Assembly: GCF_015533855.1 (NCBI RefSeq)
Contig: NZ_AP024154.1
Span: 2,920,501-2,984,500, forward strand
DNA from: Echinicola sp. 20G
GTDB lineage: Bacteria > Bacteroidota > Bacteroidia > Cytophagales > Cyclobacteriaceae
Direction of reading: 5' to 3'
DNA: 64,000 nucleotides
Part shown: in pieces, positions 3,637-41,561 of the stretch
How positions within the stretch are numbered: position 1 is the stretch's first letter
How the letters are laid out: each line of letters opens with the position of its first letter
Translations under genes and position numbers: made by a program
The notes under the pieces: generated by a model
What the model saw: only the letters and a program-made list of their open reading frames with translations
What the model was told of the DNA's origin: nothing
Database searches by the model: none

Positions 3637-5904
3637 ATGGCATTTGATATAGAAATGATCAAGGCAGTGTATGCGAAGTATCCTGAGCGTATTGCAGCTG
3701 CCAGGAAGGTGGTGGGTAAACCACTTACTTTAGCAGAGAAAATCCTTTACGCACACCTTTGGGAAGGGAACGCTACACAAAACTTTGAAAGAGGGAAGTC
3801 TTACGTGGATTTTGCTCCTGATAGAGTAGCAATGCAAGATGCTACTGCCCAGATGGCCTTGTTGCAGTTTATGCAGGCTGGAAAGGAAAAAGTGGCAGTA
3901 CCTTCTACAGCGCATTGTGACCACTTAATTTTGGCGCAAAATGGAGCGAAAGAAGACTTGAAGAGCTCGCTTACTGCCAGCGGTGAAGTGTTTAACTTTT
4001 TGGAATCAGTTTCCAATAAATATGGCATTGGTTTCTGGAAACCTGGAGCAGGTATTATCCACCAAGTGGTTTTGGAAAATTATGCTTTTCCTGGAGGGAT
4101 GATGATCGGGACTGATTCCCACACCGTAAATGCCGGCGGTCTAGGTATGGTGGCTATTGGTGTAGGTGGTGCGGATGCTGTAGATGTAATGGCTGGAATG
4201 GCTTGGGAATTGAAATTCCCTAAATTGATTGGTGTGAAGCTTACCGGCAAAATGAACGGCTGGACTTCTGCCAAAGATGTGATTTTGAAAGTAGCTGGAA
4301 TCCTTACCGTAAAAGGGGGGACTGGCTGCATCGTTGAATATTTTGGTGAAGGTGCCCAGTCACTTTCAGCAACAGGTAAAGGTACTATTTGTAACATGGG
4401 GGCTGAAATTGGAGCTACAACTTCCACTTTTGGTTATGATGAGTCAATGGCACGTTACCTAAGAGCAACTGACCGTGCGGATGTTGCGGATTTGGCCAAT
4501 GAGGTGAAGGAACACTTGACAGGTGATGATGAAGTTTATGCCAATCCAGAGCAATATTTTGATCAGGTAATTGAAATTGATCTTTCTACCCTTGAGCCAC
4601 ATATCAATGGGCCATTTACACCTGATAGAGCTACTCCAGTTTCTCAAATTAGAGCTGAAGCAGAGAAAAATGGCTGGCCAACGAAAGTAGAGTGGGGCTT
4701 GATCGGTTCGTGTACCAATTCTTCCTATGAAGATTTGTCTAGAGCATCTTCAATTGCTCAGCAAGCTGTAGATAAAAAATTGAAAACCAAAGCTGATTTT
4801 GGGATTAACCCAGGTTCTGAGCAAGTAAGGTTTACTGCTGATAGAGATGGTTTATTAAAGATTTTCGAAGATCTTGACGCTACCATCTTTACCAATGCTT
4901 GCGGCCCTTGTATAGGTCAATGGGCTAGAACTGGAGCTGACAAGCAAGAGAAGAATACCATTGTTCACTCTTTCAACAGAAACTTCTCTAAGCGTGCTGA
5001 TGGTAACCCTAATACCCATGCTTTTGTGACTTCTCCTGAAATGGTTGCTGCGATTGCCATCTCTGGTGATTTAGGTTTCAACCCACTTACGGATAAATTG
5101 GTTAATGCGGAAGGTGAGGAAGTGACTTTAGATCCACCAAAAGGTGATGAGCTTCCAGAGAAAGGATTTGCTGTAGAAGATAATGGCTATCAGGCTCCTG
5201 CAGAGGATGGTAGTGATGTGGTTGTAAAAGTAAATCCTGAATCTAAGAGACTCCAGTTGTTGGAGCCTTTTGCTCCTTGGAATGGACAGAACATCACGGG
5301 TGCAAAACTTTTGATCAAGGCTTTTGGCAAGTGTACTACTGATCATATTTCAATGGCTGGTCCGTGGTTGAGGTTTAGAGGTCATTTGGATAATATTTCT
5401 GATAACTGCTTGATTGGTGCAGTAAATGCATTCAATGAGGAAACCAACAGTGTGAAGAGTCAATTGACTGGCGAATATGGTCCGGTTCCTGCTACTCAAA
5501 GGGCTTACAAAGCAGCAGGTGTACCAACTATCGTAGTAGGTGACCATAACTATGGTGAAGGTTCTTCCAGAGAGCATGCTGCCATGGAGCCAAGACACCT
5601 TGGTGTGAAAGCTGTGTTAGTGAAGTCATTTGCTAGAATTCACGAAACCAACTTGAAGAAGCAAGGTATGTTGGCATTGACATTTGCCAATGAGGCCGAC
5701 TATGATAAGGTAAAAGAAGATGATACCATCAACTTCTTGGATCTGGATCAGTTTGCTCCTGATAAGCCGCTTAATTTGGAGTTTGTCCATGCGGATGGTT
5801 CTAAAGATGTTATTGTTGCTAATCACAGTTACAATGATGCCCAGATTGGTTGGTTTAAGGCTGGCTCGGCGTTGAACTTGATCAAAGCACAACAAAAGGG
5901 CTGA
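3637..5904 (+). CDS. acn: Aconitate hydratase (mitochondrial-type)
   Basis: A 755-aa TCA-cycle enzyme that interconverts citrate and isocitrate through cis-aconitate, in the cytoplasm. The three [4Fe-4S] ligands are visible: Cys359 in GSCTNSS, and Cys422 and Cys425 in ACGPCIG. These positions are within one residue of the mitochondrial enzyme. [13 protein letters not shown] and the swivel-domain signature [18 protein letters not shown] are also present. Length is normal for the mitochondrial-type branch common in Bacteroidetes. It appears monocistronic, with its own promoter-like TATCTTTG upstream and a strong terminator downstream. Nothing looks damaged. Confidence 0.97.
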
Positions 5905-5924
5905 TAGATTTTATTAATGATATT

Positions 5925-5960
5925 AAAAAGGCTTACCGATTTATTCGGTAAGCCTTTTTT
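5925..5960 (+). terminator. Rho-independent terminator after aconitase
   Basis: A perfect stem (AAAGGCTTACCGA / TCGGTAAGCCTTT) with a 5-base loop is followed by a T run, 22 bases after the aconitase stop. Confidence 0.9.
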
Positions 5961-6146
5961 TATTTTAAAAGTTAATCGATTTAGCTTTTGCTATATTGAA
6001 TATTCTAAATTTTTGATGAATTGTTATTTTTAAATTAAATGTTTGATTAATTATATAATATATTATATTTCAGTAATAGTTTTGATTTATTCCAAAGTTT
6101 CACCTATTTTAAAGCGATTTATTGTAATTTCAAAAATGATAAGAAA

Positions 6147-8030
6147 TTGAACAATCTCTTTAAGACCGTAACGGACCAGTCCTCTGAGATGGTGTTTTTT
6201 GTTGAAAAGGTTTTTCCTCATGCCATTGTTTATGGAAACAAGGCTTTTCAAGATGAAATAGGTAGGTTACTTTCTGATAAAAGTCTTAGGGGGTTAGGGG
6301 TAGATATAAATACCATGTTGTTTCAAGAAGAGAATATTGTAGGTTATAACAACGATTATTATTCATTCATTGTTGAAGGTTCCCAAACAGGAATCGATTA
6401 CTATTTATTTCAGAAGGGGAGTAAAGTTATTCTTCCTGGTAGTGAAGATTCTTTAGATATTTTCAATAAACAGTTGAAAGCTGAAGAGAATTTTTTTAAG
6501 AATTTACTCGATAAAATACCTACAGCACTTTTCCAAATGGTTATGGATGACAGGGGGAAGATGAGTTTTAAATACTTCAGTGAGAGCCGGAAGGGAATGT
6601 TTGATGTGTATGGAAAAGATAAGGATCATTTTAAAAGCATAGATTTTTTATTGAGTAGGGTTCACCCAGATGATATTGGGATGGTTTTGAAGACTATTGT
6701 TTATAGTACCAGATCCATGTCGCACTGGAGATGTGAATTCCGGATAATTATCAATCCTGATGAGGGGCCTCGATGGGTAATTGGTGTGGCTTCACCTGAA
6801 AGTTTACCTTCAGGAATTAACTGGTATGGAAGCATAATTGATATTGCAGATATCAAAGAAAGAGAGTTAGCGTTGGAATCTGCTAAAAAGGCTGCAGAGG
6901 AGTCAAGTAGGACCAAGTCTGATTTTATTTCTATGATTACCCATGAAATCAGGACGCCTTTGAATGCAATCTCTGGTTCAGTCTATTCACTTTTTGGAGA
7001 GGAACATAGTAAGCTTCAAGAAGGGCCGTTAAATACAATCAATTTTGCGGTGGATAACCTGATTATTATGATCAATGACTTATTGGATTTCCAGAAGATA
7101 GAATCAGGTAAAATGTCCATTGAGTCTAAGCCTTTTAATGTTAAGCAACTCTTGGGACAAGTGGTGAATGGTTTGAAGTACCAAGCCCATGAATCCAAAA
7201 ATCAAGTCAACTTGATTGTGTCCGATAGGTTGGATATTAAAGTTTTGGGAGATAAGGTAAGGTTGTCTCAAGTATTGAATAACCTTATGACCAATGCTCT
7301 GAAGTTTACCAATGAGGGAAGGGTGAATTTAACAGCCACTTTGGTGCAGGATACTGAAAATCAAGTTAGGGTTTATTTTGAGGTGAAAGATACAGGTATC
7401 GGTATAGCTAGGGAGGACTTCAAAAAGGTGTTCAATGAATTCGATCAGGTAAATCATAGTTTTGATGTAAAATATGGTGGAACTGGCCTGGGAATGCCGA
7501 TTACCAAAAGGTTATTGGAAAACATGGGGAGCCAGATCCAGCTGGAATCAGAAGTAGGTGTAGGGAGTACTTTTTTCTTTGAAATTACCTTTGATAAGTA
7601 TTTTGCAGAGAATAATATTGAGGTATATAAGCCAACTATAGTAGAGACGGAGACTCCATTGGAGAAAACCCTTGTCCTACTTGCTGAGGACAACGATGTG
7701 AATGCCATTGTCATCATGAAGATAATAAGAAGGTGGGGCTTTGAATGTGAACGGGTTTGTAATGGAGCAGAAGCGCTGAGAGCTGTTGACTTAAAAAGCT
7801 ATGACATCATCTTGATGGATCTTCAAATGCCTGTGATGGACGGTTATGAGGCTGCAAGGCTAATAAAAGAAAAGACATCGATACCTATTATAGCCTTGAC
7901 AGCTGCTTCAAAAAGCGAGCTTCAAAATAGAATGGAGGACAGGCTGATGGATAGCTTTATCTCTAAGCCAATAGATGCACTAGAACTACAGGGAAGGATC
8001 AAAGAATTGGTAAAGGCTCATAAAGTCTGA
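6147..8030 (+). CDS. Hybrid sensor histidine kinase/response regulator with PAS domain
   Basis: A 627-aa signalling protein with no clear membrane segment, so probably cytosolic. In order: a degenerate N-terminal sensory region (about 1-105), a PAS_3-like domain (about 115-240, with HPDD and WRCEFRI), the dimerisation/phosphoacceptor domain with FISMITHEIRTPLNA (His266), an ATPase domain with the N box LNNLMTNALKF, G1 DTGIGI and G2 GGTGLGM, and a C-terminal receiver with LMDLQMPVMDG (Asp558). The start is a TTG at 6147; an ATG 11 bases upstream is out of frame. Its 3' end overlaps the convergent TPR lipoprotein gene by 13 bases. Ligand and output partner are unknown. Confidence 0.9.
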   Translation: MNNLFKTVTDQSSEMVFFVEKVFPHAIVYGNKAFQDEIGRLLSDKSLRGLGVDINTMLFQEENIVGYNNDYYSFIVEGSQTGIDYYLFQKGSKVILPGSEDSLDIFNKQLKAEENFFKNLLDKIPTALFQMVMDDRGKMSFKYFSESRKGMFDVYGKDKDHFKSIDFLLSRVHPDDIGMVLKTIVYSTRSMSHWRCEFRIIINPDEGPRWVIGVASPESLPSGINWYGSIIDIADIKERELALESAKKAAEESSRTKSDFISMITHEIRTPLNAISGSVYSLFGEEHSKLQEGPLNTINFAVDNLIIMINDLLDFQKIESGKMSIESKPFNVKQLLGQVVNGLKYQAHESKNQVNLIVSDRLDIKVLGDKVRLSQVLNNLMTNALKFTNEGRVNLTATLVQDTENQVRVYFEVKDTGIGIAREDFKKVFNEFDQVNHSFDVKYGGTGLGMPITKRLLENMGSQIQLESEVGVGSTFFFEITFDKYFAENNIEVYKPTIVETETPLEKTLVLLAEDNDVNAIVIMKIIRRWGFECERVCNGAEALRAVDLKSYDIILMDLQMPVMDGYEAARLIKEKTSIPIIALTAASKSELQNRMEDRLMDSFISKPIDALELQGRIKELVKAHKV

Positions 8031-8965
8031 GCCAGTTCAAGGTATTGTTGAGTAAGTTTGATTGAAGGGTCTTTTTGGTGGACTTCTGATAAATATTTTT
8101 GGGCAAGCGTTTTGTTCTCTTTAAAATAATAATAAATGCCCTTATTTCTGAGAGCGTACAGGTTTTTACTGTTTTGCTTGAGGCTGAAGTTGATGTCTTC
8201 GATTCCTTTTTCCAACTCACCATTAAAGAGGTAATATAATCCACGATTATTGTAAAAGTAAGCTTGACCGGAATTGAGGTCGATGGCTTTTTGTACCCAT
8301 GAGAGCGCAGTACTATAATTCCCGTTTTCAAAAGCGATTAATGACCTTAAGTTGTAAATATTGGCTTCGTTCGGGTTGATTTTTTCAGCGGTTTTTAGGT
8401 CTTCTTCTGCCATATGGTAGTCTTCCAGGTAATAGTATATGGTAGCTCTGTTGACATAAAGATCCGTTACTTTACTTTCCAGTTCAATCGCATTCTTAAA
8501 GGCGGCCAAGGCTTGTGAGTAATTGGTAAGTGCTTCTTGGGCTAAGCCTCTTATGAAATAGCCTTTGTAATTTTGGGGCGAGTTGGCAATAAGCCGATCT
8601 GCATCAGCGAGGGATTTGTAGTTTTCTCCATTGTCAAGATAAGTTAGAGCTCTCTGGTATCGGGCATCATAATTCGCTTGGTCGATTTCAAGTGCTTTTG
8701 AAAAGTCATTGATGGCTTGGTCCAGTTTGGCCATTCTAAGGTTTGAAATACCTCTATTATAAAAAGCATCAGCAAATTCTGGATCCAAGTCAATGGCCTC
8801 ATTGTAAAAATCTATGGCTCCTTCGTAATCGTTTTCCAACATTTTATTGTTTCCTTTTAAAAGAAACCTGCCTTTTTTGTCTTCTATGGAGTCACAGGAA
8901 AAAAGAAAGATGACGATTAGAAATAGAGAAAACAATAATTGTTGTGAAGAATGAAGCTTGTTCAT
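8018..8965 (-). CDS. TPR-repeat lipoprotein
   Basis: A 315-aa exported protein. It begins with a hydrophobic signal ending in FLFSC, a lipobox, so it should be a lipoprotein. The rest is a chain of about seven to eight tetratricopeptide repeats with motifs such as AFYNRGISNLRMAKLDQAI and AYFYNNRGLYYLFNGELEKG. TPR arrays mediate protein-protein contacts; no enzymatic motif is present and the partner is unknown. The last 13 bases overlap the end of the convergent histidine kinase gene, leaving no room for a terminator between them. Confidence 0.85.
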   Translation of the reverse strand: MNKLHSSQQLLFSLFLIVIFLFSCDSIEDKKGRFLLKGNNKMLENDYEGAIDFYNEAIDLDPEFADAFYNRGISNLRMAKLDQAINDFSKALEIDQANYDARYQRALTYLDNGENYKSLADADRLIANSPQNYKGYFIRGLAQEALTNYSQALAAFKNAIELESKVTDLYVNRATIYYYLEDYHMAEEDLKTAEKINPNEANIYNLRSLIAFENGNYSTALSWVQKAIDLNSGQAYFYNNRGLYYLFNGELEKGIEDINFSLKQNSKNLYALRNKGIYYYFKENKTLAQKYLSEVHQKDPSIKLTQQYLELAQTL

Positions 8966-19257: not shown

Positions 19258-19341
19258 TCAGGAAGATTTTTAAAAACACAAGTTAATAAAAATCAAACTT
19301 CCAGACTCTAGAATTAAAAAAGCTGAATTTTAAGCATAAAA

Positions 19342-19370
19342 AAAGCCATGAAACAAAATCCCATAGCTTT
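19342..19370 (-). terminator. Terminator of tRNA-like RNA 1
   Basis: The stem AAAGCCATG / CATAGCTTT (one wobble) has a T run on the minus strand, about 33 bases past the tRNA-like 3' end. Confidence 0.7.
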
Positions 19371-19401
19371 AGTCAATTAACAATAAACCCAAAATAACCT
19401 G

Positions 19402-19525
19402 CTGTAGGGGAAGGACTCGAACCTCCACGGGGTAGTTAGGCAAAACACGAGCTCCATGTTTGCTTTTTCCATTGACCCCCACCCCCGAGACAGGAGGGCT
19501 TGTCTGCCAATTTCAACACCCTACA
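19402..19525 (-). tRNA. tRNA-like RNA 1: class II-like, anticodon loop with GTC, oversized variable arm
   Basis: A 124-nt tRNA-shaped RNA. Acceptor TGTAGGG pairs perfectly with CCCTACA, and G73 follows. The D arm is TTG-AAATTGGCAGA-CAA, like tRNA-Leu. The anticodon arm is CCCTC-CTGTCTC-GGGGG, which puts GTC (Asp) at 34-36 with C38 but U37. The T arm is GGAGG-TTCGAGT-CCTTC. Between anticodon and T arms lies about 55 nt, far longer than a normal variable arm, with the strong inner hairpin GCAAACATG / CGTGTTTTGC. No CCA is encoded. A terminator and a 43-bp stretch identical to copy 2 follow. Transcription is likely; whether it is charged or decodes is unknown. Confidence 0.6.
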
Positions 19526-19784
19526 GTGTGTATAAACAATCTTCTAAATTCCTTATCAACGCTTGTGCGAATTAAAGGAAAAGACCTTTTGTCTTTGTTT
19601 ATGATTCAAAGTTAAATAACTTATTTTATTATTCAAATAAATTCAACAAAAATATTAAAAGTTTGCGTTATTTTTAATATTTATAGTTTTTTATTATAAA
19701 TTATATAATTAGTGCTTGTTTGAAAACCTTTGGGAATTGTCAAATCGTTAATGAAGGTTTTATGTGAAATGAGTAGAAAGTAAA

Positions 19785-19813
19785 AAAGCTATGAAACAAT
19801 ATTTCATAGCTTT
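19785..19813 (-). terminator. Terminator of tRNA-like RNA 2
   Basis: The perfect stem AAAGCTATGAAA / TTTCATAGCTTT with a 5-base loop is followed by TTTTTT on the minus strand. Confidence 0.82.
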
Positions 19814-19844
19814 AGTCAATTAACAATAAACCCAAAATAACCTG

Positions 19845-19932
19845 CTGCAGGGAAAGGATTCGAACCTTTCATAGGTAAAAAGTGAACTTATCTCATTCTT
19901 TACACTTCCAGAATACTTTTCAGCATCCTACA
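19845..19932 (-). ncRNA. tRNA-like RNA 2: acceptor and T arm intact, centre degenerate
   Basis: An 88-nt relative of the RNA at 19402-19525. Acceptor TGTAGGA pairs with CCCTGCA except at the last position, and G73 follows. The T arm AAAGG-TTCGAAT-CCTTT is perfect. The middle has no standard D or anticodon arm; alternative stems such as AAGTG / CACTT with an 18-base loop are possible. The 43 bp after the 3' end (19805-19847) are identical to those after copy 1, and both copies share ATAAGGAA upstream. It is most likely a diverged duplicate. It could be a non-decoding tRNA mimic or a decaying copy. Confidence 0.5.
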
Positions 19933-39937: not shown

Positions 39938-39956
39938 CCTGCCGGACTGGGGCAGG
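39938..39956 (-). promoter_or_regulatory. Hairpin that can hide the leader-ORF ribosome site
   Basis: On the minus strand CCTGCC, a 7-base loop and GGCAGG form a stem immediately after the riboswitch. The AGG of the 3' arm begins the putative ribosome site of the ORF at 39930/39936. The sequence ACCTGCC also occurs in the 3' strand of riboswitch P1, allowing an alternative fold. Confidence 0.5.
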
Positions 39957-40132
39957 TCAATTTAGGCAGGTCTCCTGGCTTGTGACATTTTTGCCGCCCT
40001 TCCCATCCTGATAGCTATCAAAACAGTGGGTCTCAAGGGCAAAAACTTTGAAGTCACTTACAGTTGCGCGACAGCCCGTGATTTTCACACGGTTCCCTAT
40101 TATCCCCGGCCTTGGCCGGTGACCTAAATTGG
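39957..40132 (-). promoter_or_regulatory. Cobalamin riboswitch upstream of metE
   Basis: On the minus strand the conserved B12-aptamer blocks occur in order: AATAGGGAA, GTGAAAATCACGGGCTGTCG, CGCAACTGTAA, GACCCACTG, and AAGCCAGGAGACCTGCC at the 3' end. The closing P1 stem is AATTTAGG / CCTAAATT. It precedes metE, the B12-independent methionine synthase, a classic riboswitch target. Confidence 0.95.
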
Positions 40133-40166
40133 TGAATGAAGAAATTATGTAAAGAACTTTGAACGG

Positions 40167-41464: not shown

Positions 41465-41538
41465 CGGAGTGTAGCGCAGCCCGGTAGCGTACTTGCATGG
41501 GGTGCAAGGGGTCGTGGGTTCGAATCCCGCCACTCCGA
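41465..41538 (+). tRNA. tRNA-Pro (anticodon GGG)
   Basis: A full cloverleaf of 74 nt including the discriminator. Acceptor CGGAGTG pairs with CACTCCG, and A73 follows. The D arm is GCGC-AGCCCGGTA-GCGT-like. The anticodon arm is CTTGC-ATGGGGT-GCAAG, giving GGG for CCC proline codons. The T arm is GTGGG-TTCGAAT-CCCGC. CCA is not encoded. An integrase gene begins 284 bases downstream, so the 3' half of this gene is a plausible integration site. Confidence 0.95.
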
Positions 41539-41561
41539 CTCTTTCGAAACATTTCGATTAT

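Follow-up and report, generated by a model that had tools for sequence, protein, structure and literature searches.

The window analysed here is a stretch of 64,000 nucleotides from Echinicola sp. 20G (contig NZ_AP024154.1, positions 2,920,501 to 2,984,500), whose genome is a single contig of 5.79 Mb with 37 tRNA matches above the Rfam cut-off. Two tRNA-like RNA genes, for which we will use the terms copy 1 and copy 2, lie on the minus strand of the window. Their parts are given below, with bit scores from the covariance model R1 and counts from 131 aligned sequences, both described in the next section.

19607-19614, minus strand: -7-type box TAACTTTG, Bacteroidetes promoter TAnnTTTG; TTTG at 19634-19637, spacing 19
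19580-19596, minus strand: leader palindrome AAAGACAAAAGGTCTTT of copy 1
19402-19525, minus strand: copy 1, full-length tRNA-like RNA, positions 1-73; 124 nt, 148.7 bits, covariation
19487-19493, minus strand: anticodon-like loop C-U-G-U-C-U-C of copy 1; U35, C36 and C38 in 131/131, G34 in 124/131
19427-19481, minus strand: long variable region of copy 1, with stem P4 (GGGG/CCCC), internal loop GNANAAA/CUAAC and a variable hairpin
19401, minus strand: encoded C74 of copy 1; C after G73 in 131/131
19366-19399, minus strand: linker GGTTATTTTGGG...CTAAAGC from the copy 1 RNA to its terminator; 0 expected by chance
19338-19370, minus strand: terminator of copy 1, z -4.08
19845-19932, minus strand: copy 2, degenerate relative with acceptor and T arm only; 88 nt, 26.4 bits
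19809-19842, minus strand: linker as in copy 1, 3' of copy 2
19782-19813, minus strand: terminator of copy 2, z -4.28

The arms that an earlier note had read from the letters of copy 1 are all present. The minus strand forms an acceptor stem of 7 bp, a Leu-like D stem of 3 bp, and anticodon and T stems of 5 bp each, and the loop C-U-G-U-C-U-C gives the anticodon GUC with U37 and C38, together with G73. The 55 nt between the anticodon and T stems are also as described, but the "strong hairpin" claimed for them is by itself no evidence, since copy 1 as a whole folds no better than shuffled sequences (z -0.49); the structure is shown by covariation across relatives. Copy 2 retains just the acceptor stem, with one mismatch, and the T arm, the D and anticodon arms being gone. 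Both genes end in the same 43 bases (CAGCAGG...GCTATG), without a difference, both have ATAAGGAA upstream (plus-strand positions 19549 and 19957), and each has its own terminator, a hairpin followed by a T run. What had been described as a pair is there, but the two genes belong to a larger, multicopy family that extends through the order.

Neither copy is called as a tRNA by ARAGORN, and neither reaches the gathering score of any Rfam 15 family, RF00005 included. The genome has two ordinary tRNA-Asp(GUC) genes. Elsewhere in the window there is a cobalamin riboswitch (39948-40142, minus strand, 104.3 bits) and an ordinary tRNA-Pro(GGG) (41465-41539, plus strand).

Of the copies in the genome, four are full and five are degenerate; one of these five is copy 2, and the other four lie at contig positions 640189-640257, 5620451-5620528, 3421461-3421577 and 3205653-3205736. 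Two of these further degenerate copies, each directly before a full copy, have the palindrome CCCGATAGCTATCGGG in the D arm. In the related genome G007, copy 1 is identical at 124/124 positions, copy 2 at 85/88 and the stretch between the genes at 231/262, the difference between copy 2 and this spacer having a p of 0.02. Copy 2 is possibly a decaying copy, or one repurposed under mild constraint, and the tRNA-like reading of the earlier note is weaker for it than for copy 1.

The box upstream of copy 1 follows TAnnTTTG, which we take to be the -7-type promoter consensus of Bacteroidetes. Among 102 distinct first copies, 71 have such a box in the 130 nt upstream and 9 have one downstream, with 10.75 expected from mononucleotide shuffles, close relatives being counted as separate copies. 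By eye, leader palindromes like AAAGACAAAAGGTCTTT are also seen in relatives, and the terminators differ among many loci. The linker of copy 1 recurs in relatives of its own genus and their kin, and at some loci the RNA copies stand in tandem.

A class II tRNA-like RNA family with conserved pairing

Searching with copy 1 by blastn gives strong relatives in most of 59 genomes, usually several per genome in its own genus, with conserved ends and a variable middle. The covariance model R1 was built from an alignment of 30 sequences. In the 30-sequence MAFFT alignment, the 24 named pairs are 99.2% standard and seven of them are changed on both sides; none of 500 shuffles reaches the observed value for four of five measures, while 111 of 500 do so for further pair types. 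The larger alignment holds 131 distinct sequences drawn from the best 150 of 156 R1 matches. Its 24 base pairs are 99.1% paired, 14 of them with changes on both sides (including three of the four pairs of stem P4), none of 500 shuffles reaches any of the five measures, and sliding the 3' partner lowers the pairing to 57-64%. The smaller test is the fairer one because the larger alignment was fitted to R1. Six degenerate matches stand outside the 131 rows, namely L001:1948 (copy 2), L002:1099, L012:1145, L024:3690, L031:3015 and L064:1022.

The earlier note had proposed covariation in relatives as a check and would have given up its reading if no homologues with preserved pairing existed. Such homologues are found in both alignments, so this objection falls away, and the covariation in the 131 sequences rules out a chance resemblance or a local pair of pseudogenes. 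Comparison of these sequences shows copy 1 to be a member of a conserved class II tRNA-like RNA family that is selected for a full tRNA cloverleaf.

In the order of Echinicola (Cytophagales), 189 of 242 genomes, its own included, match R1 clearly above the level of tRNA-Leu, three tRNA-Leu of Echinicola sp. 20G itself scoring 43-55 bits. The cut-off lies between E-values of 1.9e-17 and 6.7e-15, with about 14 candidates scored per genome, and the genomes counted as lacking the RNA include false negatives, such as G050, in which it is split at a contig end. Five genomes (G048, G206, G222, G230 and G242) score close to the cut-off, at about 1e-14. G048 has a short form and is a carrier in the comparison at class level (cut-off 1e-13) and RNA-negative in the order table; the E-values of G222, G230 and G242 are similar to that of this short form. 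In a sample of 296 genomes from the phylum there are 35 matches at 1e-13, of which three (G276, G281 and G366) have 84 nt, the length of a tRNA-Leu, and that of G048 has 76 nt. Clear carriers outside the order belong to other orders of the class and, in G537 and G545, to another class. No description of the family was found in the open-licence literature, and Bacteroidetes are absent from the accessible part of a paper on odd tRNAs (PMC7609411).

The letters that are invariant in all 131 rows, which were collected by similarity and thus favour conserved letters, are U1-A72, G2-C71, U3-A70, U8, G9, G12, A14, A15, G18, G19, C20 and the next A, U35, C36, C38, the T loop UUCGA, G73 and the encoded C74. 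The D loop reads GGCA in every row; locus L217, outside the 131, has GGTA. C74 is encoded in all 16 ordinary tRNA genes of Echinicola sp. 20G that were compared, one of which (Glu) encodes CCA in full; in its 3' end the RNA therefore agrees with the tRNAs of its host. The anticodon letters are GUC in 124 rows and others in seven, with G34 varying. U33 is kept in 105 rows and lost in 26, and position 37 is a pyrimidine in 129 and a purine in two.

The family has the acceptor, D, anticodon and T arms of an ordinary tRNA cloverleaf. An ordinary tRNA also has U33 and a purine at position 37, and on this point the family departs from it; ARAGORN and RF00005 do not recognise its members as ordinary tRNAs, apart from the 76-nt form. 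Among the roles suggested in the earlier note, a tRNA mimic or a regulatory RNA recognised by tRNA enzymes is favoured over a decoding tRNA, because U33 and purine 37 are lost and the signals for tRNA enzymes are kept. A tmRNA is rejected, since the anticodon arm is present and covaries, and none is called on the loci of the four full copies of the genome (L042-L045).

The region between the anticodon and T stems grows from 55 nt in copy 1 to ~105 nt in the longest relatives aligned. It has the covarying stem P4, the GNANAAA/CUAAC internal loop and a hairpin of very different size, and in other families it holds an additional GGGUUGACCAC stretch. Support for the hairpin as a stem P5 from the complementarity of its ends is weak (3.54 of 5 against 2.88 in shuffles; 121 of 131 rows parsed, 10 missed). 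The short form of G048 (L206:1539-1614) has no variable arm and is called tRNA-Asp(AUC) by ARAGORN, and it retains UGU/ACAG, GGCA and UCUC. The tRNA body and not the arm therefore seems to be the core of the RNA. The 3-bp D stem, the Leu-like D loop and the long variable region are shared with the class II tRNAs for Leu, Ser and Tyr, from which the RNA differs in its longer variable region (55 to ~105 nt), its C20, its Asp-like loop and its UGU/ACAG acceptor. The RNA has the look of an amino-acid carrier that serves some purpose other than decoding, possibly the making of asparagine.

Enzyme recognition signals and the AsnC-type neighbour

In the accessible part of PMC9976931, Asp identity is assigned to G73, G34, U35, C36 and C38, plus G1-C72 and G2-C71, with G1-C72 crucial in bacteria, and GatCAB is described as specific for U1-A72 and blocked by G1-C72 and U20a. 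The RNA has G73, U35, C36, C38 and G2-C71 in 131/131 rows and G34 in 124. The missing AspRS signal is G1-C72, which is replaced by U1-A72 in 131/131 rows and is also missing from tRNA-Asn, a substrate of the non-discriminating AspRS. For GatCAB, U1-A72 is present in all 131 bacterial rows and in 35 of 38 parsed viral rows (the other three have A1-U72), and U20a is absent from the GGCA loop of 131/131 rows, with the caveat that positions in class II D loops can be numbered in more than one way. In Echinicola sp. 20G, tRNA-Asn has U1-A72 and a GGTTA D loop that includes U20a, and tRNA-Gln has GGCAA. As the RNA is without U20a, by this rule it fits GatCAB better than tRNA-Asn does in this genome. 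The specificity of AspRS could not be read from residue 31, as the enzyme of Echinicola sp. 20G has an uninformative Lys at this position.

The RNA and a gene of the Lrp/AsnC family occur together in 46 genomes, and in 25 of these the two are 121-229 nt apart (with between one and four typed RNA hits considered for each genome), the gene being divergent in 25/25; a check by eye of the remaining blastn hits against the AsnC positions gave no additional adjacency. Four of these neighbours were compared with NCBIfam, where their best match is AsnC, with scores (161-182 bits) that stay under the cut-off of 227. An AsnC-type gene is among the nearest genes in 18 of 39 parsed locus sets, including sets from other orders and from G537 (family f66). 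The family assignment rules out SmpB, which had been guessed from the neighbour's length of ~155 aa.

The gene is not adjacent in 21 of the 46 genomes, some of which are drafts with the RNA and AsnC on different contigs. These are 11 genomes of the genus itself, G011, G028, G030, G031, G036, G029 (1.6 kb away), G013, G014, G054 and G056. Five genomes (G018, G020, G038, G048 and G052) have AsnC without the RNA. In Echinicola sp. 20G, the AsnC gene (contig positions 3563002-3563451) is followed by an ORF of 481 aa with the place and length of SufB, and no R1 match lies near it; the RNA copies of this genus thus stand away from AsnC. A SufB relative lies behind asnC in four loci (L035, L039, L141 and L152). 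Three or four loci from the taxonomic family of Echinicola sp. 20G have an RluA-type pseudouridine synthase with a PALP enzyme, the remaining shared neighbours are single genes common to close relatives, and ten other neighbours that were scanned have no family in common. The accessible text of PMC4482635 reports that AsnC of E. coli activates asnA and that asparagine abolishes this activation.

Based on these observations, we tentatively propose that the RNA is a non-decoding tRNA that would be charged by AspRS and amidated by GatCAB and so supply asparagine, and it is also with reservation that we favour an Asp-to-Asn carrier off the ribosome under AsnC control as the reading into which most of the conserved features can be fitted. 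We infer transcription, CCA addition, charging, amidation and asparagine release. Copy 1 would have a promoter of its own, its transcript would be trimmed and given a CCA tail as tRNAs are, and the product would not decode. AspRS would charge it with Asp through G73, U35, C36, C38, mostly G34, and G2-C71, and GatCAB may convert the RNA-bound Asp to Asn, given that U1-A72 is present and U20a is absent. Asn-RNA(GUC) would misread Asp codons on the ribosome, and three features would keep it away from there: the large variable arm, a pyrimidine at position 37 and a U33 that is frequently lost. The asparagine freed from the RNA would supply AsnRS, and the divergent AsnC-type regulator would turn the RNA on when asparagine is scarce, as E. 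coli AsnC does with asnA. Phages may carry the RNA to sustain the asparagine supply during infection, and copy 2 would be a decayed or repurposed copy.

Asparagine and amidation enzymes across genomes

In the phylum sample, 30 genomes of the class match R1 at 1e-13 and all 30 have gatB; three others of the class have gatB and no R1 match. None of the 43 gatB-negative genomes of the phylum sample has an R1 match, and in other classes gatB occurs without the RNA. In the order, gatB is found in 234/242 genomes, that is, in 186/189 with the RNA and 48/53 without it; the three carriers without a gatB match (G113, G149 and G174) are all drafts of 240-690 contigs. Since gatB is so common in genomes of the order without the RNA, the link within the class may reflect shared ancestry. 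A strict restriction of GatB to genomes with the RNA is seen in the class sample, bar three genomes, and fails inside the order.

AsnRS is present in 80/80 genomes tried, in 79 above the cut-off. In the order, canonical AsnB occurs in 5/242 genomes, all RNA-negative, and AsnA in 21/242, of which 15 have the RNA and six do not; mutual exclusion with the RNA is thus seen for AsnB only (5 against 0) and not for AsnA (6 against 15). Neither enzyme is found in 174/189 carriers and in 42/53 genomes without the RNA, 19 of the 53 being reduced genomes of family f21. One or the other is present in 11/53 RNA-negative genomes against 15/189 carriers (p 0.012, uncorrected for relatedness), or in 11/34 against 15/189 with family f21 excluded (p 0.0003). 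AsnB-type paralogues (TIGR01536 over cut-off) are found in 70/80 genomes tried, most carriers included, so asparagine may be made otherwise. Five carriers (G041, G046, G065, G418 and G532) have no TIGR01536 match over the cut-off, and the three of these from the order (G041, G046 and G065) are also without AsnA and AsnB. Bacteroidetes appear among the genera with AsnRS, GlnRS and GatCAB but no Asn synthetase in the accessible part of PMC4206432, and Fulvivirga kasyanovii, placed in Cytophagia in the part of PMC12565237 available, grows on ammonium and glucose. The main weaknesses of the Asp-to-Asn reading are that the co-occurrence tracks large clades, that AsnA and AsnB are often absent from genomes of the order without the RNA too, and that asparagine could be made by AsnB-like paralogues.

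Viral copies, other readings and significance

A rather less likely reading, though one to be taken seriously, is that of a small regulatory RNA under AsnC control, in which the tRNA fold would serve stability or processing and the loop or the variable arm would act on mRNAs or proteins; its targets, at the same unlikely level, could be asparagine metabolism or the suf genes behind asnC in some genomes. The promoter-like box, the terminator, the divergent AsnC gene with a SufB relative behind it in four loci, and the long variable arm with its conserved GNANAAA/CUAAC loop, extended in other families, would all suit such an RNA. The invariant positions, however, are those that tRNA enzymes read, there is no obvious antisense seed, and the arm is hypervariable and missing from the 76-nt form that keeps UGU/ACAG, GGCA and UCUC.

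Copies of the RNA are also found in predicted viruses. A pattern written for the D and anticodon arms finds 71 predicted viral contigs in IMG/VR, and 65 R1 matches have E<1e-15. The pattern left the acceptor free; 51 of the 71 hits were parsed (20 were not), giving 38 distinct copies. All 38 have G2-C71, G73, C74 and U33, and 35 have U1-A72 (A1-U72 in three), while acceptor pairs 3-7 vary with compensation, which supports selection on the first two acceptor pairs and position 73. Of six proteins scanned on four viral contigs, five match phage protein families and one has no match. An ordinary tRNA lies within 600 nt in 36/71 viral loci and none in 29, with up to 25 tRNAs per locus; L228 holds the RNA in the same locus as a 21-tRNA array and a possible tmRNA call. 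No AsnC homologue was found in any of the 71 viral loci. Searches by blastn with copy 1 against plasmids and phages gave no match, and two viral sequences found no relative among deposited phage records.

Some viral contigs (L222 at 5130-8251, L223, L225, L226 and L227) carry up to seven tRNA-like shells with a constant acceptor AGTCAGG and T arm ending in ...GGTTCGAATCCTGTCCTGACTA around unrelated interiors of ~60-100 nt, and the T-arm end alone is found in L240, L280, L284 and L288. ARAGORN calls none of the listed shells. Their layout is like that of copy 2, and they could be tRNA scaffolds that hold small RNAs.

The viral copies also allow for a translational role, and a real translational tRNA with an Asp-type anticodon and an exceptional variable arm, used conditionally and by phages, would be an improbable alternative. 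It would agree with GUC in 124/131 rows, with U33 in 105/131 bacterial and all 38 parsed viral rows, with the ordinary tRNAs near the RNA in 36/71 viral loci, and with the naming of the short form as tRNA-Asp. It is countered by the two ordinary tRNA-Asp(GUC) genes of Echinicola sp. 20G and the tRNA-Asp in 7/71 viral loci, and by the pyrimidine at 37 in 129/131 rows, the loss of U33 in 26/131 and the variation at position 34. We consider it quite doubtful that the RNA is a decoy or spare for tRNA-cleaving or tRNA-modifying enzymes, such as anticodon nucleases of host or phage. This would explain the multiple copies and their carriage by phages, and it fits the nearby tRNAs in viral loci and the conserved anticodon loop, but it leaves the AsnC neighbour, U1-A72 and the encoded C74 without a reason, and the core is conserved over the order instead of evolving fast. 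A Glu-to-Gln variant, in which Glu would be charged and amidated, or another use linked to GatCAB, is very unlikely: U34 or C34, as in Glu anticodons, occurs in 4/131 rows and the GGCA D loop is like that of the own tRNA-Gln, but G34 and C38 dominate and the neighbour is AsnC-like.

The Asp-to-Asn carrier proposed here has a known counterpart in the tRNA-dependent synthesis of asparagine on tRNA-Asn by the non-discriminating AspRS and GatCAB in Deinococcus, Thermus and Bdellovibrio, as described in the accessible part of PMC4206432. As far as that part goes, the two would share enzymes and chemistry, U1-A72, and genomes with AsnRS and GatCAB and without AsnA or AsnB. The known route uses an ordinary tRNA-Asn as the carrier and its product goes straight to the ribosome, whereas here the carrier would be a separate RNA with an Asp anticodon, seemingly unfit for decoding.

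Two other RNAs invite comparison. The non-proteinogenic tRNA-Gly of staphylococci serves peptidoglycan synthesis. Like it, the RNA may be a tRNA kept for charging and not for translation; the staphylococcal tRNA differs in its ordinary size, its amino acid and its lineage. Bacterial Y RNAs (YrlA) have a tRNA-like module, and the present RNA is likewise a bacterial non-coding RNA that mimics tRNA. A Y RNA is nevertheless rejected, as the ends here form a true acceptor stem with G73-C74 and no Ro-type family is found among 20 scanned neighbour proteins.

In the order, the RNA is found in most genomes sampled, frequently as several copies, and is named by neither ARAGORN nor Rfam. If charged, it would be a further non-decoding tRNA, with a conservation much wider than that of the staphylococcal one. 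As a substrate of GatCAB, it would provide an asparagine route for organisms that have AsnRS and lack AsnA or a canonical AsnB, and would explain the presence of an AsnC-type regulator next to it. In phages it would count as an auxiliary metabolic gene of the RNA type. The RNA may, though we say so with some diffidence, be a dedicated metabolic tRNA that has no other task than to hold Asp during its conversion to Asn, that yields a free amino acid in place of a residue set by a codon, and that is wired to an AsnC-type sensor, in several orders of the phylum and in their phages.
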